From the NCBI RefSeq assembly GCF_000210915.2, contig NC_016620.1, positions 1,240,001 to 1,304,000 on the forward strand: a stretch of DNA of 64,000 nucleotides. Reading direction: 5' to 3'. Origin of the DNA: Halobacteriovorax marinus SJ (lineage in GTDB: Bacteria; Bdellovibrionota; Bacteriovoracia; Bacteriovoracales; Bacteriovoracaceae). Below, in pieces: positions 31,599 to 44,694 of the stretch. The notes beneath the pieces are model-generated. The model did no database searches. It saw only the letters and a list, made by a program, of their open reading frames with translations, and had not been told where the DNA came from. Made by a program: the position numbers and the translations under genes. Position 1 is the stretch's first letter, and each line of letters begins with the position of its first letter.

Positions 31599-31775
31599 AT
31601 AATACCCAGTAAGTAATTGGTTTTTTTGAATTTTAGTAAGTTATACTATTTTAATCTAATTTTACCCTATTTTACAACTAAACAGGGACACGATTTCCTT
31701 TAGTTGGAGATTTTCTCACCGATAAGTTATTATAATTATGAAAACATTCATAGAAGGAAGGATATAACACTAAGC

Positions 31776-34409
31776 ATGAAGATCATTTTTTACACTACAG
31801 ATAAGTCCGTAAAAAATTTTTTCTCATCCCTAGAGGTTGAGAATGCTTGCCTATGTACTTCTCTCGAAGAAGTAGAAGAGCAGTTTTCATCAAGTAACCA
31901 CAGTGTGGTTCTCTTAGACTTTGATTGTGAGGAGCTTAATTGTAAGGCACTCGCAAAAGAATTTAATGTTATAGAGAATGTAAATAGTGTGCTCTTAAGC
32001 GGGAAGATGGGAATCAAAGAAATCATGGACTTTCAAAACTCCAGCGATGCTTGTGATGCCTATCTAACGAAACCACTTTCAGTTGAAATTCTTACAGGTG
32101 TCATTAACGACTTTGAAATTGCCCTTAAATCAGCAAACGATGATGGTTCGTCTAATAGTGAAGAGAGTGAGAATGTAGATCTTACTTTCATTGGAATTAA
32201 TAAAGATTTACTAGATCAATTAAACTCTGCCGACAGTGAAGATAAGACTGGTGAGGTAGAGGTGAGTGCTGATTTAAGTGATGAAGTTGATGAAGATGAC
32301 GAAGAAGAGGCGATGGACTTTAACGCTAGTCCTATTCAGGTTGCAAAAGAAGTTCGCGATGTTATCGACTCACATAGATCAAGTGGTAAAGGCTTTCAAG
32401 GCCCTGTTCACGATGATATTCAAAGAAAATTCGACGCCGTATTTGGTAGTGAAAGAGAAGAAACTAAAAAAGAAGATGAATTTAATATTACTCCTCAGGG
32501 TTTTGATGAGGATGGTAAAACGCAAGATGATGAGAATGGAATTAGTTTTGATTTAGATTCAAATGAGTCTACTGATAACGATGCCACACTTGATATTAAT
32601 GACGATGTGGCACAAGAAGCCGTTGCATCTGCACAAGAGGTTAAGATGTCTAATGAAGACGAAAACAATGAAGGCCTAGAATTTAATATTCCTTCAGATG
32701 AAGAGGAGAGTACAGAGTCAGAGCAAGCTGTTGTTGAAGACGCTAGTGACTTAGACTTCTCAAACGATGAAGATGAAGGAGGGCTCGAGTTTAATTTAGG
32801 TGCTGATGAAGATGGAACTCAAACAGAGGAGTTCTCAAACCAGGATACGTCTTCTGATTCAGATTTAGACTTTTCCGAAGATACAGGTGCAGGTTTAGAT
32901 CTTAGTGGCGAGAGCGATGAGCTTGAAAGCAATGCTGAGGAGACTCAAGATGCAGGCATGAGTTTTGATGATGATACTGATGATGGACTCTCTCTATCTG
33001 CAGAAGATGACGTCATTGATAATCAAGATACTCAAGAGGGTGATGAGGACCCTGGTCTTTCATTTGACGACGATGAAAATGACGAATTAGATTTAAATGA
33101 ATCATATGAAGCGAGTGAAGAAGATAGTGTTGACTCAGATAATGACACTCTTGACTTTAGCGCTTCCGAGTCAGATGAAGAGAGTTCGGACTCTGCGACA
33201 GTGAGTGAAGAACTTAACTTTAGTGCTGATGCGGATAGTGATTCAACAGATCCTTCCTTTGATGTTGGAATGGGGACGAATACATCCAATGATATAGAAT
33301 CGACGATTAGCTCTATCGTCGCTCCTGATACGAGTAGCGCAAATGAGGACTCAACGGGTGAGTTTGACTTCTCTGCAGCGGCACAGGAGAGTGAGGAAGA
33401 AGATGAGATGCAGGAGTTTGACTATAAAACTTCATCTGGATTTTCACCTAGTGAACTTAGTACTTCAGAAATTGAGGATGATGACGAGTTTGGCTCAATT
33501 GATGAGAGTATAGGGGAAGATACTAACCCAACAGTTATTGCCAATACCTCAACTCTTACAACTAGTGATTTCTCTGCTGACTCAAGTGATGAAGAAGATG
33601 ATGCTGATGAGCTACTCTTTGGTGAAGAAACAGGAACTAATGAATTAGATTCTCCTAGTTTTGATAATACTGCTGAGACTATAGTGTCTACATTATCAGA
33701 GAATGACTTTACAGAGACTGTGGCAACAAGTCCTTCTCCTGATCCTGCTCCTACTCAATCTTATAGTGCTCCAAACGAAGACTTTGTTAGAAATTATGAC
33801 GAAGATGAAATGCTTCGCTTACAAGGTACAATTAGACAATTGAGAGAGGAGCGTGAAGCGCTCATGGAGAGTATTAATCAACTAACTAGTGAGAAGCAAA
33901 TACTCTCTCAAGATAACTTAGGCTTAAAAGCCGAGCTCGATGAATTAAAGATCGAGATCGAAATTGTTAAAAAGAGAAGTCACGACGAAGTAAGTGAGAT
34001 GAAGTACCAAATGAATATGAGTCAAGAGAAGAAAGATGTCTTTGAAATGAAGTATAAGACTCTTCATAAAGAGTTTGAAAGGCTCAATCAGAAGGTCAGA
34101 ATTGATTTTAATCAAGTAAAGCAAAGAGAGAAAGAGCTTGAAAGTAAGCTAGAGTTAGCCGTTATGGACTCTGACTCTCAAGTGCAATCTAGAGATATGA
34201 AAATACTAGAGCTTAAGAGAAAGATTGATTCATTAGAATTTAATATGGAGAACTCATCAATTAGAGAACAAAAGCATAGAGAAGATAAGCTTAAGCTGGA
34301 AGAGAGATTGGCAAAGATTATGAAAACGCTAAGAGGATCAATTCAGCTTATTGAAGATGACTTAGAAGTTTTAGAGTCAGATAACTCTACAGAATTGGAT
34401 AAGAATTGA
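31776..34409 (+). CDS. Degenerate receiver plus acidic linker plus coiled coil (AglZ/FrzS-like layout)
   Basis: 877 residues from the ATG at 31776 (GAAGGAAGG upstream; an earlier ATG at 31704 is less likely). Residues 1-~115 look like a CheY-type receiver: the site Asp (VVLLDFD) and the Lys (AYLTKPLS) are present, but the N-terminal acidic pair is reduced to a single Asp (YTTDK), so it is probably degenerate. Then comes a ~500-residue, Asp/Glu/Ser-rich linker with recurring LDFS / GLEFNL / GLSFDDD motifs. The C-terminal ~200 residues are a long coiled coil (LRLQGTIRQLREEREALMES). This order matches AglZ and FrzS of Myxococcus, which act in motility polarity. Overlaps the GGDEF gene by 4 bp. 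Confidence 0.72.
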   Translation: MKIIFYTTDKSVKNFFSSLEVENACLCTSLEEVEEQFSSSNHSVVLLDFDCEELNCKALAKEFNVIENVNSVLLSGKMGIKEIMDFQNSSDACDAYLTKPLSVEILTGVINDFEIALKSANDDGSSNSEESENVDLTFIGINKDLLDQLNSADSEDKTGEVEVSADLSDEVDEDDEEEAMDFNASPIQVAKEVRDVIDSHRSSGKGFQGPVHDDIQRKFDAVFGSEREETKKEDEFNITPQGFDEDGKTQDDENGISFDLDSNESTDNDATLDINDDVAQEAVASAQEVKMSNEDENNEGLEFNIPSDEEESTESEQAVVEDASDLDFSNDEDEGGLEFNLGADEDGTQTEEFSNQDTSSDSDLDFSEDTGAGLDLSGESDELESNAEETQDAGMSFDDDTDDGLSLSAEDDVIDNQDTQEGDEDPGLSFDDDENDELDLNESYEASEEDSVDSDNDTLDFSASESDEESSDSATVSEELNFSADADSDSTDPSFDVGMGTNTSNDIESTISSIVAPDTSSANEDSTGEFDFSAAAQESEEEDEMQEFDYKTSSGFSPSELSTSEIEDDDEFGSIDESIGEDTNPTVIANTSTLTTSDFSADSSDEEDDADELLFGEETGTNELDSPSFDNTAETIVSTLSENDFTETVATSPSPDPAPTQSYSAPNEDFVRNYDEDEMLRLQGTIRQLREEREALMESINQLTSEKQILSQDNLGLKAELDELKIEIEIVKKRSHDEVSEMKYQMNMSQEKKDVFEMKYKTLHKEFERLNQKVRIDFNQVKQREKELESKLELAVMDSDSQVQSRDMKILELKRKIDSLEFNMENSSIREQKHREDKLKLEERLAKIMKTLRGSIQLIEDDLEVLESDNSTELDKN

Positions 34410-35419
34410 GCGAAGAGAATTTAAATATACATTATAAGAATCTTTTAGATTTTATCTTTGAGTGCGATCAATTAGATTCGATTAAGCAAGTTTATGAACT
34501 CTTAAATAACTTTTGGATCAAAGAGTTTTCAACTTCATCAATTAATGTCTTTAGTGTTTATAGAAAGAATCCAGACTCTCGTAGTTGTAGACAAATCTGG
34601 AAGCCTAAGAAGGTTATTCAGGGCTTGAGTGAGAGTGAATTAAAACATTTGAAAAAAGAAATAAAAGCAGGGGAAGAGCTAGAGCGCTGGAAGAATATCT
34701 CACCAAAAGAGGGGGAGTTCTTCTATGTAATCTCATGTGGAGAATCATTCTCGCAAGAATTCTATGCAGGTTTTAAATCATCTGAGAAAATACCTGATAA
34801 GATTTTAGATTACCTAGTCTCTTACCTCGTAAATTCGTCAAAGAAGTTTAAGAAATTTAGTGAAGCTGAAAAGCTTAAATCACTCGTTCATATTGATGAT
34901 GTAACAGGTCTTTATAATCAAAGAAAATTCCTAAAAGATATTGATGATTCGATCATTAAGTTTGAAGAGACAGGAGAAGTCTTCTCGGTCATCTTTATAG
35001 ATATTGACCACTTTAAAAGTGTCAATGATGGTCATGGTCATCTCGTTGGAACCCAGCTTCTCTCCGATGTTGCTAATGTACTTAAGAGAGTCGTTAGGGA
35101 GAGTGATTTATCATACCGCTATGGTGGTGATGAATTTGTGATTATTGTCCCAACGTGTGACGCTAAAAATGCTAAAGAAGTGGGCCTAAGAATTTTAAAT
35201 GGTATTTCTAAAGAAGAGTTCTACGTCTCAGAAGAGAAGGGAATCAACGGTTCACATACCTTTAAGCTATCGGTCTCTGTTGGTGTGGCAACATACCCGG
35301 AAGACGCTAAGACAAGAGTTGAAATTATTAGCTTTGCAGATAAGATGATGTATAAGGCCAAGCAGTCTGGTAGAGGAAAAGTCTGTTGTGCTGGAGAAAT
35401 GTTTACTGAGGAAGAGTAG
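34406..35419 (+). CDS. Diguanylate cyclase with GGDEF domain
   Basis: 337 residues. The C-terminal ~170 residues are a GGDEF domain with intact active site (YRYGGDEF) and the inhibitory site RESD placed five residues earlier (RxxD), so the product should make c-di-GMP and be feedback-inhibited. The preceding ~165 residues form a divergent sensory-type domain with no motif I can name. The start is a TTG whose TTGA overlaps the upstream stop by 4 bp, so translation is coupled to the AglZ-like protein. One base separates it from the phosphoesterase gene. The trio forms a signalling operon. Confidence 0.88.
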   Translation: MSEENLNIHYKNLLDFIFECDQLDSIKQVYELLNNFWIKEFSTSSINVFSVYRKNPDSRSCRQIWKPKKVIQGLSESELKHLKKEIKAGEELERWKNISPKEGEFFYVISCGESFSQEFYAGFKSSEKIPDKILDYLVSYLVNSSKKFKKFSEAEKLKSLVHIDDVTGLYNQRKFLKDIDDSIIKFEETGEVFSVIFIDIDHFKSVNDGHGHLVGTQLLSDVANVLKRVVRESDLSYRYGGDEFVIIVPTCDAKNAKEVGLRILNGISKEEFYVSEEKGINGSHTFKLSVSVGVATYPEDAKTRVEIISFADKMMYKAKQSGRGKVCCAGEMFTEEE

Positions 35420-36499
35420 ATGTTAATTTTATCTCTTAGTGATCTTCACCTTGGAAAAGGTAAATTTCTAAAAAATGGTCAACTTAATATACTAGAGGAC
35501 TTCTTTGAAGATCAGAGATTCTATGAATTCTGTGAGTTTTACTCCAGTGATAAATACTATTCAATGGAAGTTCACCTAGTTCTTAATGGAGATATTTTAA
35601 ATCTTATTCAAATTGATTTTGAAGGGGTATTTACTTATATAATAGATGAGAAAAAGGCCGATTTAGCTCTAAAAAAAATTATTGAGGGGCACCCGATATT
35701 CTTTGATGCATTAAAACTCTTTCTATCAGCACCTAATAAGAAAATATCCTATGTCATCGGTAACCATGACGCTTCAATGGATTTCGAGCTTCCACAGAAG
35801 AGACTCGATGTGAGAGTGGATGGAAGAATTAACTACTGTCACGTACTTGAAACTCATGGTGTGCATGTTGAACATGGACATCGCTTTGAGGCAATAAACT
35901 CAGTACCAAAAGATCGTTACTACTCAACAGGTCCAAGTGGAAAGAAAATTGTCAATCTTCCATGGGGGAGTTTATTTTGTATATCGGTTTTGCCTCAACT
36001 TAAAAAAGAGAGACCTTATCTAGATAAAGTTCGCCCAATGAGTTCTTATATTAAGTGGTGTCTCATTCACGATTTTGCATTCTTTATAAAAATGTCCATT
36101 ATTGTCATTAAGTATCTAATAGAAAGTAACTTTGATACTTATATCAAGGACAATAGAAATTTTAGAACGTCACTAAAAATTCTAAAGCAAATTACGATTT
36201 ATCCACGCTATGAGAAGAAAGCAAAGAGTATTCTAAAGAGAAATATTTCACTACATACCGTAATTATGGGGCATACTCATTTACAAGAGTGGAGAAGGTT
36301 TCCAGAGGGTAAGTACTACTTTAACACTGGGACATGGAATCCAATCCCATCTATTGATGCTGGTCTTCATCAAGATTCAACATGTCTTACTTACTGCATG
36401 TTAGATATTCATAAAGAGAGCTCTACCCTTAGACAGGGCTCCCTAAATGTATGGCAAGGTAAGTGGAGACCGTTTACTTCTGAAATCTCTACTATGTAG
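35420..36499 (+). CDS. Calcineurin-like metallophosphoesterase
   Basis: 359 residues. The two-metal motifs are in order: DLHLG, then LNGD, GNHD, HVEHGHR and GHTHLQ, all with the expected ligands. The family includes phosphatases and nucleases acting on phosphoesters; no subfamily is clear. It has no signal peptide, so it probably works in the cytoplasm. Third gene of the operon with the AglZ-like and GGDEF proteins; a role in nucleotide signalling is only suggested by this context. Confidence 0.85.
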   Translation: MLILSLSDLHLGKGKFLKNGQLNILEDFFEDQRFYEFCEFYSSDKYYSMEVHLVLNGDILNLIQIDFEGVFTYIIDEKKADLALKKIIEGHPIFFDALKLFLSAPNKKISYVIGNHDASMDFELPQKRLDVRVDGRINYCHVLETHGVHVEHGHRFEAINSVPKDRYYSTGPSGKKIVNLPWGSLFCISVLPQLKKERPYLDKVRPMSSYIKWCLIHDFAFFIKMSIIVIKYLIESNFDTYIKDNRNFRTSLKILKQITIYPRYEKKAKSILKRNISLHTVIMGHTHLQEWRRFPEGKYYFNTGTWNPIPSIDAGLHQDSTCLTYCMLDIHKESSTLRQGSLNVWQGKWRPFTSEISTM

Positions 36500-36500
36500 A

Positions 36501-38675
36501 TTAGCTCCTACCTTCATGAATAATTTGAGAACTTTGCACTGAGATTACGGAACAAGACGCTCCAGCAATAAGTCTATCATCATCAGAACCAATAACATCT
36601 TTTATAAATGAGTGGTTAGAAGCCCCAAAGACAAAGAGGTCATACTCTGCTGTGAGTTGAATAATATCTTCTACAGGCTTATTTGAAATAAGAACTCTGG
36701 ACTTTGAAAGAACTTTTGTTCTCTCACACATTGAAGCCAATCTATTTTGTGCTTCGTCTAGAACATTCTTAGGTGTTTTCTCTTTGAAAATTTTAACGAG
36801 ATCCAGTGAAGCTTTATTCATAGTTGCAAAGTGATCTGCCGTATCGACAACAAGTTCGTAGTCACAGTTATTATTTACTATCACTAATACTTTTCTAATA
36901 TAGCGAACTCCTGCATCTCTAAAGATCGCAAGATTACACTGAAGATGATTTCTAAGCCACCCTACAGGATTGTGAACCGTAAAGTTTCCTCGTTTCTTGC
37001 CTCCCCATTCTTTGAAAAGCCATAGACAATGGAGCCTTTGACTAATTTCAAAAACACTTCTCGAAATATCGTGACTAGCAATAGGGTCAAAAGTGATCGG
37101 GATATTCTGCTCGACGGACATCGCAATAATTCTTCTTCTAAGGGACCTTAGGTAAACTGTTTCCGTATTCAAATCTTTGAGCTCTGTCTGCTCTGGAACT
37201 TCAGTGAAGTGAGCAACCTCTAAGTTTTCACCTTCACTCATGGCCGCGGCCATTTGAATTAATGTCTCAGGACTTCTCTCATTACCGAAGAGAGAGACAA
37301 CAACCTTCGCATCCTTTGTGAGGTCAATACTTTCATAAAAGTTTGTTAAACTAACATTTTCATCAACTAAATCACTTCTCTTTCCTCGTATCCCTAGGAC
37401 ACCTCTTCTTGTGGTTCTCTTTCTTGAATAAGCAAGAAAGAGAGCAACACCAGGAATTGAAATAACAAGTATGGCCGTGACAATAATGAATCCCATACCA
37501 AATAGAAGCCCAACTCCACTGAGGATTCCTAGGATCTGTAAAAAGGGGTACATCGGACTTTTAAACTGAGGACGGTACCACTGAACTCTCATTTCCCTAA
37601 GAACAATCACAGCGATATTTTCAAAGACGTAGATTAGAAGCATAAAGCCTGAGGCCAGTTTGGCAATCTTTGTTACGTCCATAAAGAGAATTGTTGCCGC
37701 TACAATTATTGAAGAGAGAAGTATACTCCAAACTGGAGTTAAGTATTTCTTGTGAAGCGTTCCAATAGCGCCAGGTAGGAGTCTGTCTCTACCCATTGCA
37801 AAAGGAAAACGCGAAGAGGCCAATATTCCTGCGTTGGCCATAGATATCATCGTAAGAATACCAATTATCGAAATAAAGATAGCGAAACCTTTTCCACCAA
37901 CAGTCTGGGCCATTGTGTAGAGAGGTCTATAATTTCCAATGAGCTCTGAACTTGGAACACTTCCAACGAGAGTAAAAGTTGTTACACAGTAGATAATAGT
38001 CACTAGTAAGAGTGATAAGAGAATTCCTCTAGGGAGGTTCTTCTCTGGAGACTTTATTTCCTCTGCAATTGCTGCCACTTTTGTAACACCCGCATAAGAA
38101 ACAAAGACAAGAGCAGTAGAAGACATAAGACCGCTAAAGCCCCCAGTCATAAAAGGAGTCATGAGATCTTTATCTAATACCGGAATACTAATTCCACTTA
38201 GTGCCATGAGGGAAGTTATGGCGATGGCGACGACCACCATTAGTGCACTACTAACTTTTCCAACTCCAAAAATATTTAAGATTGTTATCAGTAAAAGAGA
38301 GATAATCGCGGTAGTGATGAGAGGAACGTCCGCTAGAATCGTTAAATAAGCACCAAAGCCTACGAGAGCAAAGGCAGCTTTTAAAAGAAGTGAGAGCCAA
38401 AGCCCGAGGCCTGCAACGGTTCCAGCAAGTGGTCCAAAGGTTCTTTCTAGGTAGACGTAGGTTCCACCTGAAGTTGGCATGGCCGTAGCAAGTTCTGACT
38501 TTGACATCGAAGCGGGAAGAACACAGAGGGAGGCAAGTAAGTAAGCAAGCCAAACAGATGGACCTGTTTGAGCGATGGCCAAACTAGGAAGTACGAAAAT
38601 CCCACTTCCCAACATTGCGCTTATACTTATGGCCACTACAGATAGAAGACCTAATTTTCTCTCTAATGCTTTCAA
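36501..38675 (-). CDS. APC-family amino-acid permease with C-terminal USP-like domains
   Basis: 724 residues from a TTG at 38675 preceded by GAGAGG. An ATG at 38834 would add 53 residues overlapping the divergent gene and is unlikely. The first ~400 residues are a 12-TM APC transporter (ISISAMLGSGIFVLPSLAIA, SMSKSELATAMPTSGGTYVYLERTFG). The last ~280 residues form two universal-stress-protein-like domains, shown by VVSLFGNERSP near the start and ending with LFVFGASNHSFIKDVIG. Such fusions may let stress or nucleotide signals adjust transport. Substrate not identifiable. Confidence 0.85.
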   Translation of the reverse strand: MKALERKLGLLSVVAISISAMLGSGIFVLPSLAIAQTGPSVWLAYLLASLCVLPASMSKSELATAMPTSGGTYVYLERTFGPLAGTVAGLGLWLSLLLKAAFALVGFGAYLTILADVPLITTAIISLLLITILNIFGVGKVSSALMVVVAIAITSLMALSGISIPVLDKDLMTPFMTGGFSGLMSSTALVFVSYAGVTKVAAIAEEIKSPEKNLPRGILLSLLLVTIIYCVTTFTLVGSVPSSELIGNYRPLYTMAQTVGGKGFAIFISIIGILTMISMANAGILASSRFPFAMGRDRLLPGAIGTLHKKYLTPVWSILLSSIIVAATILFMDVTKIAKLASGFMLLIYVFENIAVIVLREMRVQWYRPQFKSPMYPFLQILGILSGVGLLFGMGFIIVTAILVISIPGVALFLAYSRKRTTRRGVLGIRGKRSDLVDENVSLTNFYESIDLTKDAKVVVSLFGNERSPETLIQMAAAMSEGENLEVAHFTEVPEQTELKDLNTETVYLRSLRRRIIAMSVEQNIPITFDPIASHDISRSVFEISQRLHCLWLFKEWGGKKRGNFTVHNPVGWLRNHLQCNLAIFRDAGVRYIRKVLVIVNNNCDYELVVDTADHFATMNKASLDLVKIFKEKTPKNVLDEAQNRLASMCERTKVLSKSRVLISNKPVEDIIQLTAEYDLFVFGASNHSFIKDVIGSDDDRLIAGASCSVISVQSSQIIHEGRS

Positions 38676-38825
38676 TAATACCTCTCGAATTAGGTCTAGT
38701 ATTCTTACATATATGACTTTATATGTCAGAAAAAGATTTTGTGCATTGCGCTCCCACAAAGCTTTAGATAGACATAATTTTAAATAAAAATTTACGAATT
38801 CTTGCTTCCTTCCGAAGAGAGTCTT

Positions 38826-39998
38826 ATGAAACATATTCTTATTGTAGATGACGATTTAGATATTCACGGACTTTTTAAAATCCACTTCAAAGACCTAGAC
38901 TATAAGCTTCACTTCGCAACAGATGTAGAAGAAGCTCTCATTCATCTAGAACATGATGACGTGGCCTTTATTTTCTTAGATATAATTATCGGGGATAATG
39001 AGACCAGTCATAGGATCCTAAGAAATAGTGGTGATAGACCAATTTTCTTGATGAGTTCTCATATTACAGATGATTTTTGTCAAAGAGTTGTAGAAAAAAA
39101 TGTTAATATTTTAGATTGTCTACCAAAGCCTTTTACTAAGAAAGATATTGTTAATCTCTTATCTGACTATAAGAGTTTTGCTTATGGTAAGAAGAAGTTT
39201 AACCCAAATGAAGATACTCACTTTGTTGAAGGAAAAAGAGAAGATATAGGTGAAGAGCATATAAATGTTAAAGGCCATAAAGAATTAAGTGAATCGATTC
39301 AACTGATTTCTGGTGATGAGCCTCTAGCTGAGGAAACGGAAATCGTTAGAGGAGGTGAGCATGATGAGGAAGAAGATATTCATGTCTCTGGTAATTTTAA
39401 CGAGGACTTTGATGAGCACTTTACCATAGTCAGTGGAGACTATTCAGAGCCTGACCGCGAAGAAGTAATGCGAGTCAAGAGACTGCACGAGCTTGAAGAG
39501 TTAAGAGAGAAGGGACCTCTTTCTAGAACTGATGCTGGTTACTCTCGCTTAATGATATCAGTCTTTCTAGAGAGTAAAGATGAGGTCGCACAGGCCCTTG
39601 ATGATGGAATAAAAATTGATCTTCTTTGCCGTGGGGGCTTCTCAGCTCTTCACTTTGCGGTAATGAAAGATCTCTATGAAATTGCAGAGTTTCTCATTCA
39701 AAGAGGTGCCAAGCTAACAGTGAAAGATAATGATGGCAGAGAGCCATTATATTTTGCCATTTTTAGAGGCAATTTAGATTTAGTTAAGCTTATGGTTGAG
39801 GCAGGAGCGCCGTTAAATCGCAGAGTTAACGGAAAGTCCTATTTAATGATTGCAGCGCTTAAAAGACATGAAGTATTATTTAAGTATCTACTTTCACAGG
39901 GAGTTTCACTCGCAGTAAGGGATAATGAGGGCTTTAATATTAACTATTATCTAAAGAAGTTGAAGCTTGAACATTATCTGATGAGTGAAAGCGCTTAG
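38826..39998 (+). CDS. Receiver-ankyrin protein with repeated [VI]xG linker
   Basis: 390 residues from the ATG at 38826 (GAAGAGAG site). N-terminal receiver with intact acidic pair (VDDD), phospho-Asp (FLDIIIG) and Lys (LPKPF). Residues ~130-211 form an acidic linker with six copies of a short beta-like motif ending in [VI]xG or similar (FVEG, NVKG, LISG, IVRG, HVSG, IVSG) every 12-16 residues. The C-terminus has three to four ankyrin repeats (GGFSALHFAVMKDLYEIAEF; DGREPLYFAIFRGNLDLVKL). It may bind partners in a phosphorylation-dependent way; function not known. First gene of the phosphorelay cluster. Confidence 0.82.
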   Translation: MKHILIVDDDLDIHGLFKIHFKDLDYKLHFATDVEEALIHLEHDDVAFIFLDIIIGDNETSHRILRNSGDRPIFLMSSHITDDFCQRVVEKNVNILDCLPKPFTKKDIVNLLSDYKSFAYGKKKFNPNEDTHFVEGKREDIGEEHINVKGHKELSESIQLISGDEPLAEETEIVRGGEHDEEEDIHVSGNFNEDFDEHFTIVSGDYSEPDREEVMRVKRLHELEELREKGPLSRTDAGYSRLMISVFLESKDEVAQALDDGIKIDLLCRGGFSALHFAVMKDLYEIAEFLIQRGAKLTVKDNDGREPLYFAIFRGNLDLVKLMVEAGAPLNRRVNGKSYLMIAALKRHEVLFKYLLSQGVSLAVRDNEGFNINYYLKKLKLEHYLMSESA

Positions 39999-40007
39999 GA
40001 TATGAGT

Positions 40008-40379
40008 ATGGATTTAAAGTTTATTGTTATAGATGATTCCGCTGAAATGGTCGCTCTTTTAAATAAGTTCATTGAAAATTGTCAGCTAGGTCATGGTCAC
40101 TCTTTTGAGAATGAGTTTGAGGCCATGGATTTCGTCTCAGTAAATAAGGCGGACGTACTTATTATTGATGTAAATTTAAAACATATAAATGGCTTTAAGT
40201 TGGGTGATATGCTTAGAGAGATGCTCAAAATTGAATTACCAATCATCTATATTTCGTCCAATGATCTCTATTTGAAAGAGTTCTATGATTCAGATCAAAG
40301 AAATACTTACTTTATGAATAAGCCTTTTGATAAGGAAACTTTTGAATCTGTAATAAAGAAAATGACCAATACGAATTAG
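40008..40379 (+). CDS. Stand-alone receiver domain (CheY-like)
   Basis: 123 residues from the ATG at 40008; TTAGGA lies 7 bp before it, whereas an ATG at 40002 has no room for a site. All receiver residues are present: VIDDSAEM (acid pair), LIIDVNL (phospho-Asp), ISSN (Ser), MNKPF (Lys). It starts 9 bp after the receiver-ankyrin gene and overlaps the convergent receiver gene by 4 bp. Likely an intermediate in a phosphorelay. Confidence 0.87.
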   Translation: MDLKFIVIDDSAEMVALLNKFIENCQLGHGHSFENEFEAMDFVSVNKADVLIIDVNLKHINGFKLGDMLREMLKIELPIIYISSNDLYLKEFYDSDQRNTYFMNKPFDKETFESVIKKMTNTN

Positions 40380-41083
40380 TCTTGTGAGATAGGTATTTTT
40401 AAGAGAAATTTTCTAATATTTTTCATCAACTCTTCATCGTCAAAATCAAATTTAACACTAATCAAATAGCCGATAGAGTCTTCTTCCCTAGTGCAGGATT
40501 CAATAGTGGCGTAGACAAAGTCCCTTCCTGACAGTCGCTTAAAGAGCTCTCCACTCATTCTAATTTTGTTTCCCTTTGAAATAAAATTATAGGATTTAAA
40601 GGTCGCTCCTTCTTCATAGAGTGAGGTGACATCTAGGTCTAACTCTATGTAGGACTCTCTGGCGGTGGCAGGAACGGCAAAATAGGGAAGAGACGATGAC
40701 TCTTTATACATATCTCCGAGAACAGCATTTATCTTACACTGAACAGTAGTCTTATCTAAAGGCTTAGTTATGTAGTCGTCTGCTCCTAAATCGAGACCTT
40801 TTTGAATATCTTCTTCTGCAAACCTTCTGGAGACAATGACAATTTTAATTTGATTACCAAACTTCTTTCTTATGGCCCTAAGGATCTCATAACCAGCACC
40901 CTTAGAAGCTTCTAAGTTTAAGTCAATAATACAAAGATCTGGAATGAATTTATTAAATTCTTCAAAGAACTCTGGAGCCGTAAGAGTCGTTCTCACAAAG
41001 TATTCCTCAGCAGCAAGGATATCTTTTAAAAAGACATTGATATCTCTATCATCATCAATGGTGAGTATTTTCTTCTTATCCAA
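40376..41083 (-). CDS. Response regulator: receiver plus PilZ-like C-terminus
   Basis: 235 residues. The receiver is intact (TIDDDRDI, IIDLNLE, SRR at the Ser/Thr position, ITKPLDK). The C-terminal ~95 residues (ELDLDVTSLYEEGATFKSYN... MSGELFKRL) have the beta-barrel look of a PilZ domain but lack the RxxxR c-di-GMP motif, so binding is doubtful. It ends the Hpt-REC-REC run on the minus strand, 2 bp after the previous gene. A downstream output protein of the relay is plausible. Confidence 0.75.
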   Translation of the reverse strand: MDKKKILTIDDDRDINVFLKDILAAEEYFVRTTLTAPEFFEEFNKFIPDLCIIDLNLEASKGAGYEILRAIRKKFGNQIKIVIVSRRFAEEDIQKGLDLGADDYITKPLDKTTVQCKINAVLGDMYKESSSLPYFAVPATARESYIELDLDVTSLYEEGATFKSYNFISKGNKIRMSGELFKRLSGRDFVYATIESCTREEDSIGYLISVKFDFDDEELMKNIRKFLLKIPISQD

Positions 41084-41085
41084 AA

Positions 41086-41766
41086 CTAGATCCTTCTCTT
41101 TTGACGTTTTCTAATTGATTGAAGAATTTTTTCGGGAAGTCCAATCATTTGCATAACAGTATCATAAATTCCTGGGTTAATATCCCTCGATTTCTGATAA
41201 ATTTTCATATGACCTTTCTTTATATTCATATCTCTAAAGAACTGGCTCTCTATTTCTATATTCTCCTTAGTCATGAACTTAACTCTTGATCTTAGTACGA
41301 AAGATATTTCATTAAACTTTATAATTTCAGCAGGAACATAAACCTTTGCGAGCTTGGATTCATCAACTGGTGTATAGGTGGGGAGTGCACTTTCTTTGGA
41401 AAACCTTTTTACAGTATTCACCAAAGTATTGTTACTTAGAGGTTTAATTAAATACCCTTGCACGCCATATTTCTTTGAGAGGAGAATGGACTCTTTAGAC
41501 TTCTCACTAGAGATCATATAAATTTTTAAATATTGTAGAATCTCTCTCTCTTTTAATGAGTCCAGTAATTTAAATCCTGCCTCGTTTTCAAGATTAATAT
41601 CAAGGAGAACCATATGAGGAGCATACTCAAGAATTTTCTTAAGGGCATCTTCAGTATTTGTTGCCTTTAGTACAACCACTCCTATATTGGAGAGAATCTT
41701 TTCACAGAATACGAGAATATCTAGATCGTCATCAACAACGAGAATGTATTTCTTCGTTTCCTTCAA
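41086..41766 (-). CDS. Response regulator: receiver plus PilZ-like C-terminus, second copy
   Basis: 226 residues. Receiver motifs VVDDDLDI, LLDINLE, MISSEKS and LIKPLS are intact. The C-terminal part (EIIKFNEISFVLRSRVKFMT) resembles that of the neighbouring gene in placement and beta-strand pattern, so the two are likely paralogous. It has a basic tail (RKRQKRRI). Sits 1 bp after the Hpt gene and 2 bp before the other receiver gene, all in one operon. Confidence 0.75.
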   Translation of the reverse strand: MKETKKYILVVDDDLDILVFCEKILSNIGVVVLKATNTEDALKKILEYAPHMVLLDINLENEAGFKLLDSLKEREILQYLKIYMISSEKSKESILLSKKYGVQGYLIKPLSNNTLVNTVKRFSKESALPTYTPVDESKLAKVYVPAEIIKFNEISFVLRSRVKFMTKENIEIESQFFRDMNIKKGHMKIYQKSRDINPGIYDTVMQMIGLPEKILQSIRKRQKRRI

Positions 41767-41767
41767 G

Positions 41768-42076
41768 TTAACCTACCTTTACAAAAGATACTTGAACGTT
41801 TTCTACATAGCTCTTAAAATCATCGATTAATTTGCTGAGCTCATCATCTTTCTTTTCTTGGGCAACGAGCTCAATTGCTTTTGCAATCTTTCCAAGTTGA
41901 TGAAAACCATAGCCGCCTGAACTACCGCTAACTTTGTGTCCAATTCTCTCAAGTTCAAGATACTCCCTTTTTTCATAAAAGGATTCTAGATCTACGATAT
42001 CGTTTCTTCTATTCTCCAGAAAGCCAGGTACGATATCTTCGAGATCAATATCAATTTCTACAGTAAAAGATTCCAC
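41768..42076 (-). CDS. Histidine phosphotransfer (Hpt) protein
   Basis: 102 residues. A four-helix Hpt domain with the phospho-acceptor His in the signature HKVSGSSGGYGF. Hpt proteins carry phosphate between a hybrid kinase receiver and a final response regulator. First gene of the minus-strand operon. The divergent hybrid kinase starts 184 bp away and is the natural partner. Confidence 0.85.
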   Translation of the reverse strand: MESFTVEIDIDLEDIVPGFLENRRNDIVDLESFYEKREYLELERIGHKVSGSSGGYGFHQLGKIAKAIELVAQEKKDDELSKLIDDFKSYVENVQVSFVKVG

Positions 42077-42260
42077 TATTACCTCCAGTCTAAATTCTTC
42101 TAATTCATTGAATTCCTATGAGCACCTCTCTATTCTGCCATGACTCTATAGATTCAATAACAATTTTTCCTCAAGATTTCTTAACTAGTAAGTATTTTCA
42201 GCTCTTTATATGCTAAAATTAATTTAGTTTACTGGCCTTTTTCCGATAGAATATAAGCGA

Positions 42261-43727
42261 ATGAATATTGTAATTATCAAACACAGAGACTTTTCAACTG
42301 AGCGTATCCAAGAGACTTTCTCTAGCAAAGGATATACCGTCTACTCATTTGCCAATAGGGATGAAGTAACTGATTTTGTTGAACATAAATGTTCCAATCT
42401 TTTTCTTCTTCCTGCCGACGAACACGGATATGAAATTGCGAAGATGATTAGAAGCTCTAGAGTTATAGATTACAATCTATCTGCAACGCCAATTCTTTTT
42501 CTCGGTGATACTGATGACATTACAAAGAGAGTGGAATCAATCTCTTGTGGAGGTAATGATTTTGTTGAAAGAACCAACCTTGCAAAAATTATCAAAATTT
42601 CAAGAAATCTCTTAGAGCCCGATCTTGTATGGAAAGGTGCAAAGATTGTTGTAGTTGAAGATGATAGAACTTCTGCCAGAATTGTTTCTTCATATGTTGA
42701 GAATATGGGCTCAGTTGTGAATTGGTTTGAATCTGGAGATGAATGTTTAAAGTACTTATCTACTGATACTGCTGATCTACTTCTTGTCGATTACTTAATG
42801 CCAAAAATGAATGGTGCTGAATTAACTAAGAAGATTAGGAATGAACTAGGGCTGAAAGAGCTCCCTATCATTTTCACTTCTTCTACACTGGAGAAAGAAG
42901 AGATATTAGAATTTTATCGCAGTGGTGGTAACGACTATATTTCTAAGCCTTATTTAAAAGAAGAGCTTTATACAAAGATGAAGCTTCAACTCGAGAGTTC
43001 TCAAAATACGAGGTCTTTAAACGTCTATATTGAAGAGCTGAAGAACTTAAGTAATGTCAAAGATCAATTCCTTGCCGTATGTTCGCACGACTTGAAGACG
43101 CCGCTAAACTCTATTATTGGCTACTCCGATGTTTTAAAAGAAGATGCTCAAGTTGATGATGAGTCTAGAGAGTATATTGAAATTATTAATCATGCCTCTA
43201 GGGATTTACTCACTCTCGTAAATGATATTTTATCTTGCACTGAAGTTCATTTAAATGGAGAAATTGAACTAGAGGAAATAGAGCTAGTAAAAGTTGTTGA
43301 GTATATTTTAAAGCAAGTTAAAGGGACGTCCCGTAAAGAGTTTGAATATAAACTCACAATTGATACTAAGAAGCCTATCATTCGTGGCAATCTAGCAATG
43401 CTTCGAAGGGTGTTTTCAAATATTTATTCTAATGCTCACAAATTTACACCAACTGGTGGTAAGATTGAGACTCGAATTTGGGAAGAGGGTGACTTTATAA
43501 AATGTAGTATCTCAGATTCAGGTATTGGAATCCCCGAGGAACATTTAGAGAAATTATTTTATAGAATGTCTGGTGTTGGCCGTGAAGGTCTAGAGGGGCA
43601 AAAGAGTACAGGACTTGGTCTTTCCATCGTAAAAGATATTATGGAAAAACACGGTGGAAGAGTTGATGTCGAAAGTGAAGAAGATTTTGGGACAACTTTT
43701 ATTTTATCTTTTTTAAACGGTAGGTAG
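42261..43727 (+). CDS. Hybrid histidine kinase: pseudo-receiver, receiver, HisKA, HATPase
   Basis: 488 residues, no TM, so cytoplasmic. Residues 1-~120 are a receiver-like domain lacking the phospho-Asp (FLLPADEHG). A complete receiver follows (VVEDDRT, LLVDYLMPKMNG, SKPYLKEE). Then HisKA with SHDLKTPLNSIIG (phospho-His) and an HATPase_c with the N box (SNIYSNAHKF), G1 (DSGIGIP) and G2 (GLGLSIV) intact. Unlike classical hybrids, the receivers are at the N-terminus. Followed 3 bp later by a stand-alone receiver. Confidence 0.9.
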   Translation: MNIVIIKHRDFSTERIQETFSSKGYTVYSFANRDEVTDFVEHKCSNLFLLPADEHGYEIAKMIRSSRVIDYNLSATPILFLGDTDDITKRVESISCGGNDFVERTNLAKIIKISRNLLEPDLVWKGAKIVVVEDDRTSARIVSSYVENMGSVVNWFESGDECLKYLSTDTADLLLVDYLMPKMNGAELTKKIRNELGLKELPIIFTSSTLEKEEILEFYRSGGNDYISKPYLKEELYTKMKLQLESSQNTRSLNVYIEELKNLSNVKDQFLAVCSHDLKTPLNSIIGYSDVLKEDAQVDDESREYIEIINHASRDLLTLVNDILSCTEVHLNGEIELEEIELVKVVEYILKQVKGTSRKEFEYKLTIDTKKPIIRGNLAMLRRVFSNIYSNAHKFTPTGGKIETRIWEEGDFIKCSISDSGIGIPEEHLEKLFYRMSGVGREGLEGQKSTGLGLSIVKDIMEKHGGRVDVESEEDFGTTFILSFLNGR

Positions 43728-43730
43728 ATA

Positions 43731-44102
43731 ATGAGAATTTTACTTTTAGATGACAGTGTAGATAATCTCAATTTACTTAAGATATACGCTAAGAAGTCTC
43801 AAGATGATTTTACGATGGTTTCAAAGCCAGACGAGGCAATGTCCCTTCTTCAGCAAGAATGTTTTGATCTCTTCTTTCTAGATATTCAGATGCCCGGTAA
43901 AGATGGCTTTGAAGTCTTAGAAAGTGTCCGTGATATTAAAAATGGAAAGGAGCTCTTTGTTTGTGCTCTAACTGCTCATACTTCTAAAGATGAAGTAGAG
44001 AAGATTCAAAAATCATCATTTGATGACTATCTTAAAAAGCCGATTCTTAGGGAAGATTTCTTAAATTATATCGAAAAGTATTCTGTTAAAGCGGCAGGTT
44101 AA
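43731..44102 (+). CDS. Stand-alone receiver domain downstream of hybrid kinase
   Basis: 123 residues. Intact receiver: LLDDSVD, FLDIQMPGKDG, LTAHTS, LKKPI. GGTAG precedes the ATG, and the gene starts 3 bp after the kinase stop, so both come from one transcript. Likely the direct partner of that kinase. A bidirectional terminator follows. Confidence 0.9.
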   Translation: MRILLLDDSVDNLNLLKIYAKKSQDDFTMVSKPDEAMSLLQQECFDLFFLDIQMPGKDGFEVLESVRDIKNGKELFVCALTAHTSKDEVEKIQKSSFDDYLKKPILREDFLNYIEKYSVKAAG

Positions 44103-44104
44103 AA

Positions 44105-44131
44105 AAAAGAGAGGACTTAAGCCTCTCTTTT
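44105..44131. terminator. Bidirectional terminator after 43731 receiver gene
   Basis: AAAAGAGAGG (44105-44114) pairs with CCTCTCTTTT (44122-44131), followed by CTTTTATTC; the opposite strand has eight or so T. Shared by the convergent Lys-rich gene. Confidence 0.85.
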
Positions 44132-44142
44132 CTTTTATTCTC

Positions 44143-44694
44143 TTATTTCTTTTTTGCTGGAGCTTTACTTGAGCTCGTTTTCTTAGAAACGGCTCTCTTC
44201 TTAGGTGTGGCCTTTTTCTTGGTCGTCTTCTTCTTTGAAGCAGAAGTAGACGCCGCTTTCTTAGTCGCTTTCTTTGCAACAGACTTTTTCTTTGTCACTT
44301 TCTTCTTAGTAGTCTTTTTCTTTTTGACTGAAGAAGTCGTGGCCTTCTTTTTCTTCTTAGTTGTAGCTGTATTCTTAGATACGTACTTCTCAACTTGCTT
44401 CTGTAATTTAGAGAGCTCTTTCATTTGCTCATCTACAAAAGACTTCGCTTTCTTGATTTCAGATTGAACAGTCTTATCTACAACTTTTTCAATCCTCTTC
44501 TTTTCAGCTTCAAACTTCTTAAGAAGGAGGTTTACGTCCTTTTCAACTAAGTTTTTCACGTCTTTTTCAGCTTTTTTTACAAAACTCTTAACTTGTTTTT
44601 GTACATCTTTTAGCTCGTTGTTTTTTACAATTTCTTCAATGTCTTTACCGACATTCTTTAATTGCTTCATAAAATCTTGAACTTTAAAATCCAT
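44143..44694 (-). CDS. Lys-rich histone-H1-like protein with helical N-terminus
   Basis: 183 residues. The first ~100 are a long amphipathic helix rich in Lys/Glu/Val (QKQVKSFVKKAEKDVKNLVE), similar in style to phasins or coiled coils. The last ~75 are low complexity, mostly Lys/Thr/Ala/Ser (KKTTKKKVTKKK, KKAASTSASKKKTTKKK), like bacterial histone-H1-type tails (PAKKK at the end). Binding to DNA or polyphosphate is plausible; both ideas are inference. RBS GGAG lies before the ATG. Confidence 0.78.
   Translation of the reverse strand: MDFKVQDFMKQLKNVGKDIEEIVKNNELKDVQKQVKSFVKKAEKDVKNLVEKDVNLLLKKFEAEKKRIEKVVDKTVQSEIKKAKSFVDEQMKELSKLQKQVEKYVSKNTATTKKKKKATTSSVKKKKTTKKKVTKKKSVAKKATKKAASTSASKKKTTKKKATPKKRAVSKKTSSSKAPAKKK

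Follow-up and report, generated by a model that had tools for sequence, protein, structure and literature searches.

The question raised by this locus is whether seven closely packed signalling genes build a single phosphorelay and, if they do, what the output of such a relay would be. The window is the stretch 1,240,001-1,304,000 of the chromosome of the marine predator Halobacteriovorax marinus SJ, taken at its full length of 64,000 nucleotides, and all feature coordinates are counted from its start; the published genome of this strain consists of a 3,435,933 bp chromosome and a 1,973-bp plasmid (PMC5760749). It is considered probable, from the sequence evidence laid out below, that the locus encodes a four-step phosphorelay with paired receivers bearing degenerate PilZ-like tails (RP3 and RP4) as its output.

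Organization of the gene cluster

The initial annotation had placed a seven-gene cluster in divergent and convergent operons at 38826-44102, and all seven open reading frames were found there with the domains it had assigned (Pfam). The genes are arranged in three tight operons with intra-operon gaps of 1-3 bp. The first one, on the plus strand, comprises ankREC (38826-39998), a 390-aa protein with a receiver (REC), an acidic linker and four ankyrin repeats, and REC2 (40002-40379), a single-domain receiver of 125 aa recognised by Pfam and by its orthologs. It converges with the second operon, read on the minus strand in the order Hpt-RP4-RP3, so closely that the stop codons of REC2 and RP3 overlap. 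This operon encodes a stand-alone Hpt of 102 aa (41768-42076, GTG start) and two proteins with a Pfam REC domain and a degenerate PilZ-like tail, namely RP4 (41086-41766, 226 aa) and RP3 (40376-41083, 235 aa), both starting with TTG; RP4 is called here REC-X and RP3 REC-X', and together with Hpt they make up the core triad. Hpt and the kinase gene HK are transcribed apart, and the 184 bp between them (42077-42260) are read from gene layout and locus comparison as the divergent promoter region of both operons. The third operon, on the plus strand, consists of HK (42261-43727), a 488-aa protein with a pseudo-receiver, a REC, HisKA and HATPase_c, and of REC7 (43731-44102), a single-domain receiver of 123 aa, followed by a terminator-like hairpin (44105-44131, plus strand) which a pattern scan identified by consensus match only.

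Such density is exceptional for this genome. The 5.3 kb of the cluster contain seven of the 56 receiver-domain matches and one of the five Hpt matches of the whole genome, the next densest stretch of that length holds two receivers, and in 20,000 random placements seven receivers never fell into one stretch. Random placement is a lenient null because two-component genes tend to cluster, and more weight is given to conservation.

Conservation of the Hpt and REC-X triad

The Hpt protein scores above the Pfam cut-off (PF01627, 30.1 bits), and H47, G51, Y56, G57 and L61 are invariant in 16 orthologs, which makes His47 the candidate phospho-acceptor. The triad was followed through 129 genomes of the order with profiles for Hpt (A3) and for the tails only of RP3 (A4) and RP4 (A5). 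The RP3-type tail was found at 54 places in 46 genomes, these being related and not independent. Within 4 kb of these places an RP4 tail occurs in 50 cases, an Hpt in 39 (at least in G007 and G089:C31 the domain counted forms the C-terminal end of a kinase) and both in 38; at 32 of the 54 the three follow one another strictly as Hpt, RP4, RP3 on the same strand. Beyond the family, the RP3 tail was matched in 39 genomes of a 241-genome sample of the phylum, a part of these matches being weak, and similar Hpt/REC-X/REC-X' sets are present in other families of the phylum. In other phyla, a scan of genome contigs with the RP3 alignment returned generic receivers only, because its sole pattern was the receiver motif, and the tail profiles remained empty there.

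The tail profiles of RP3 and RP4 match each other (A4-A5, hhalign 96%), and the full-length proteins fall into two clades with a support of 0.997, three of 68 being misplaced by label. Homologous tails together with this split indicate an old duplication whose products have been kept together.

The triad is accompanied by HK, REC7 and REC2 in G013 and in each of the four genomes of the same genus, and in distant relatives the triad alone persists. These two facts bear in opposite directions on the view that two or three unrelated two-component operons merely adjoin, so that ankREC-REC2 and HK-REC7 would not work with Hpt-RP4-RP3. The three transcription units and the survival of the bare triad in distant relatives speak for it; the company which HK, REC7 and REC2 keep with the triad in five genomes, and the position of ankREC next to RP3 or close to it in two other genera, in addition to its orthologs within the genus, make it most improbable. 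Separate regulation of the three operons could nevertheless count against a single relay.

The kinase and its receivers

The catalytic core of HK is well recognised by Pfam (HisKA 62 bits, HATPase_c 88 bits). The initial annotation described a kinase with receivers at its N-terminus, and their position is right, but only the second one has the look of a phosphate acceptor. The first is a pseudo-receiver: it scores below the Pfam cut-off, lacks both the phospho-Asp and the Lys in the window protein, and the Asp is also missing from the orthologs inspected. The acidic pair, phospho-Asp and Lys are intact in the second receiver of HK as well as in RP3, RP4, REC2, REC7 and ankREC.

No C-terminal receiver of the kind carried by hybrid histidine kinases was recognised by Pfam on the HK chain, and the separate REC7 starts 3 bp downstream. 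The best NCBIfam matches of REC7 are receivers of hybrid kinases, for example residues 668-787 of BarA, and in the REC tree its nearest non-orthologous neighbours are C-terminal receivers of hybrid kinases. By this measure REC7 resembles a C-terminal receiver detached from a hybrid kinase.

Pfam recognised no sensor domain in the window HK. At other loci the partner kinases bear PAS, GAF, CHASE or CHASE3 domains or no sensor, while Hpt and REC-X remain constant; since the sensor kinase varies and Hpt and REC-X persist, the input of the module is exchangeable, its output triad constant.

Fused and split versions of the relay parts

Of the 40 loci compared, 27 have the full set of relay parts (kinase, non-output receiver, Hpt, REC-X protein) inside a span of five open reading frames, and at two more loci the missing Hpt was recovered by other searches (at L187 by Pfam, and at L060). 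At eight of the 27 loci the kinase and Hpt share one polypeptide (HK-REC-Hpt) adjoining REC-X, several of them confirmed by Pfam, and at L188-L190, from families other than that of the window, each of HK, REC, Hpt and REC-X is a protein of its own, like the parts described here. In family f6 (L186, for example) HK-REC-Hpt is paired with a single REC-X protein. By the classical argument, the same parts found both fused and split point to one path. The fusions beside REC-X, taken with the grouping of REC7 among hybrid C-terminal receivers, suggest the order HK, REC7, Hpt, REC-X pair.

The same comparison includes loci at which a kinase is absent nearby (L051, L053, L055, L065 and L196), so that Hpt may also take phosphate from kinases encoded elsewhere, and the one next to it is perhaps not its sole donor. 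Such loci also lend something to another explanation, in which Hpt serves as a sink or shuttle for phosphate and resets RP3 and RP4, HK transfers phosphate directly to REC7 and to the receivers on its own chain, and no four-step order exists; the intact receiver which HK carries upstream of its HisKA domain would agree with it. This explanation is judged rather unlikely, as the eight HK-REC-Hpt fusions adjoining REC-X have the usual architecture of a forward relay.

The tails of RP3 and RP4

Whether the tails deserve the name PilZ-like, which the initial annotation gave them, depends on the method of comparison. No protein of the window matches PilZ (PF07238) above the curated Pfam cut-off, and the 62 related proteins (A1, A2, A6) yielded any PilZ match only twice, with E values of 0.17 and 2.3e-5. 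In a profile-profile comparison against 33 PilZ domains of H. marinus SJ and related genomes, the signal of kinship was uneven, reaching 95% for the phylum set, 93% for all tails and 59% for the RP3 set, with control comparisons (reversed PilZ, Hpt, REC) at or below 0.6%. The RP4 tail alone gives no PilZ match (3.6%) and is linked to PilZ through RP3 (96%) and the phylum-wide set. No credible match came from searching PDB sequences with the tail profiles, and single-sequence AlphaFold models of the window proteins are poor (mean pLDDT 50 and 40). The tails are described here as degenerate and distantly PilZ-like, and the six-stranded barrel of PilZ is a putative fold for them.

The possible c-di-GMP output, suggested at first for this cluster, found no support. 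The RxxxR and [DN]x[SA]xxG motifs occur together in none of the 62 REC-X family proteins examined, whereas of 33 ordinary PilZ domains in that group 32 contain RxxxR and 30 contain DxSxxG, and the alignment of the tails with PilZ begins past the RxxxR position. As the tails are devoid of the c-di-GMP motifs and their support as PilZ is of the profile-profile kind only, a direct c-di-GMP output is unlikely. A version of it may be conceived in which RP3 and RP4 bind c-di-GMP in a way gated by phosphorylation: the tails are distant kin of PilZ, one of the two GGDEF genes of the genome is located 3.4 kb upstream and is again close by in another genus, and noncanonical binding of cyclic nucleotides is known for the pseudo-receivers ShkA and Cle (PMC10333796). 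Even so, since the two motifs, almost universal among the ordinary PilZ domains of this group, occur jointly in no tail, it is rated very unlikely.

ankREC and the neighbourhood of the cluster

The acidic linker of ankREC contains, at residues 125-210, six [IV]xG repeats of 13-14 aa with a spacing of 14, 13, 13, 13 and 15, a repeat without a Pfam family which was delimited by its spacing and by ortholog comparison. The number of [IV]xG motifs ranges in the orthologs from 5 to about 20, and the array of G001 consists, at the DNA level, of a 42-bp unit repeated in tandem almost perfectly. The repeat profile also matches a coiled-coil-rich protein of ~870 aa conserved in the genus, and a G001 protein that joins a degenerate REC/HD part to the repeats and to ankyrin; the repeat, variable in copy number, is hence common to ankREC and several large proteins of the genus (L048, L047, L257, L261).

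In G001, G002 and G013 extra receivers flank the cluster, and a REC-HD gene with an altered HD-GYP signature stands between Hpt and the kinase (L048 8638-9954, L049 7756-9063, L050 8572-9912); the gene is missing at this spot from the window and its two nearest relatives, which is read as a loss in that lineage. Two relatives also possess a further receiver protein of about 285 aa adjoining ankREC (L048 3637-4497, L049 3512-4366), which ends in a domain of about 160 aa for which Pfam offers no credible match.

Upstream of ankREC, at 36501-38834 on the minus strand, a gene encodes an amino-acid permease with a fused, weakly recognised universal-stress-protein region; throughout the genus, and in G013 as well, this gene accompanies the cluster. 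Its longest open reading frame begins with an ATG that lies within ankREC, so that translation probably starts at a more internal codon. Still further upstream, at a distance of four kb (31704-36499, plus strand), lies a trio of genes: an acidic, coiled-coil-rich protein of 901 aa with a receiver-like N-terminus and no Pfam match, the GGDEF gene (34406-35419) which its gene overlaps, and a phosphoesterase-like gene. In G013 (L263) the trio is found beyond the permease gene, on its far side. Downstream of the cluster, at 44143-44694 on the minus strand, a Lys/Ala/Thr-rich protein with a histone-H1-like tail is encoded, and it is conserved beside the cluster.

Proposed course of the relay

The claim that every part of a His-Asp-His-Asp relay is present stands as regards the kinase, the Hpt histidine, the intact receivers, the conserved triad and the HK-REC-Hpt fusions, and falls for the first receiver of HK, which is dead. 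From these parts we infer the direction of transfer, the intermediate receiver and the mode of output. The cytosolic HK would autophosphorylate on the histidine of HisKA and hand the phosphate to the detached receiver REC7, or else to its own second receiver, from where it would pass to His47 of Hpt and, in the last step, reach the receiver domains of RP3 and RP4. Their paired tails would serve as outputs, most likely by protein-protein contact and not by c-di-GMP binding. REC2 and ankREC probably draw on that Hpt too, as additional clients or as sinks, ankREC with its repeats and ankyrin probably acting as a scaffold.

Relation to known systems and significance

The same four steps are known from the hybrid-kinase relays of BarA, TorS and ArcB, where HK-REC-Hpt passes phosphate to a response regulator. 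The likeness extends to the relatives in the phylum with an HK-REC-Hpt fusion beside REC-X, and to REC7 with its resemblance to a hybrid receiver. The cluster differs in that its receiver and Hpt are separate proteins, the receivers of HK are N-terminal and one of them dead, and paired REC-PilZ-like proteins take the place of DNA-binding regulators as outputs. In the HptB branch of Pseudomonas several kinases feed a stand-alone Hpt, and a PilZ protein, HapZ, intervenes at the step from SagS to HptB (PMC10333796). Likened by parts, homology aside, both circuits have a stand-alone Hpt as a hub, exchangeable kinases and a PilZ-type protein; the PilZ protein of Pseudomonas, however, is a separate inhibitor of phosphotransfer, whereas the PilZ-like domain of the cluster is fused to the proposed end-acceptor receiver. 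Myxococcus offers the REC-PilZ combination PixA, and PlpA, a PilZ protein without c-di-GMP binding (PMC8316039). The cluster shares with PixA the pairing of a PilZ-type domain with a receiver, and PlpA provides the example of a PilZ protein working without c-di-GMP, in motility and polarity. PixA has its PilZ domain at the N-terminus, intact motifs and no described Hpt partner, in contrast to RP3 and RP4, which are REC-first, paired and motif-less.

No description or name of an Hpt/REC-X/REC-X' module in Bdellovibrionota was found in the open-access literature searched, and the main text of a 2024 comparative genomics paper mentions neither response regulators nor Hpt nor PilZ. The cluster is a genuine lineage-specific form of a known kind of phosphorelay, and apparently an undescribed one.

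To our knowledge, little is known about signal integration in Bdellovibrio-type predators. Here a compact module is kept across many genera of the phylum, combining exchangeable sensors with a constant Hpt and paired outputs; the cluster names the proteins for a transfer experiment and flags c-di-GMP binding as a likely wrong expectation. A bolder proposal, to which only a slight probability is attached, is that the REC-X pair represents a phylum-level class of response regulators with degenerate PilZ-like tails for protein docking, and that the [IV]xG repeats of ankREC form a multivalent scaffold for components of this kind. If this were true, Bdellovibrio-type bacteria would possess a phosphorelay-controlled assembly in place of a transcriptional or c-di-GMP output.
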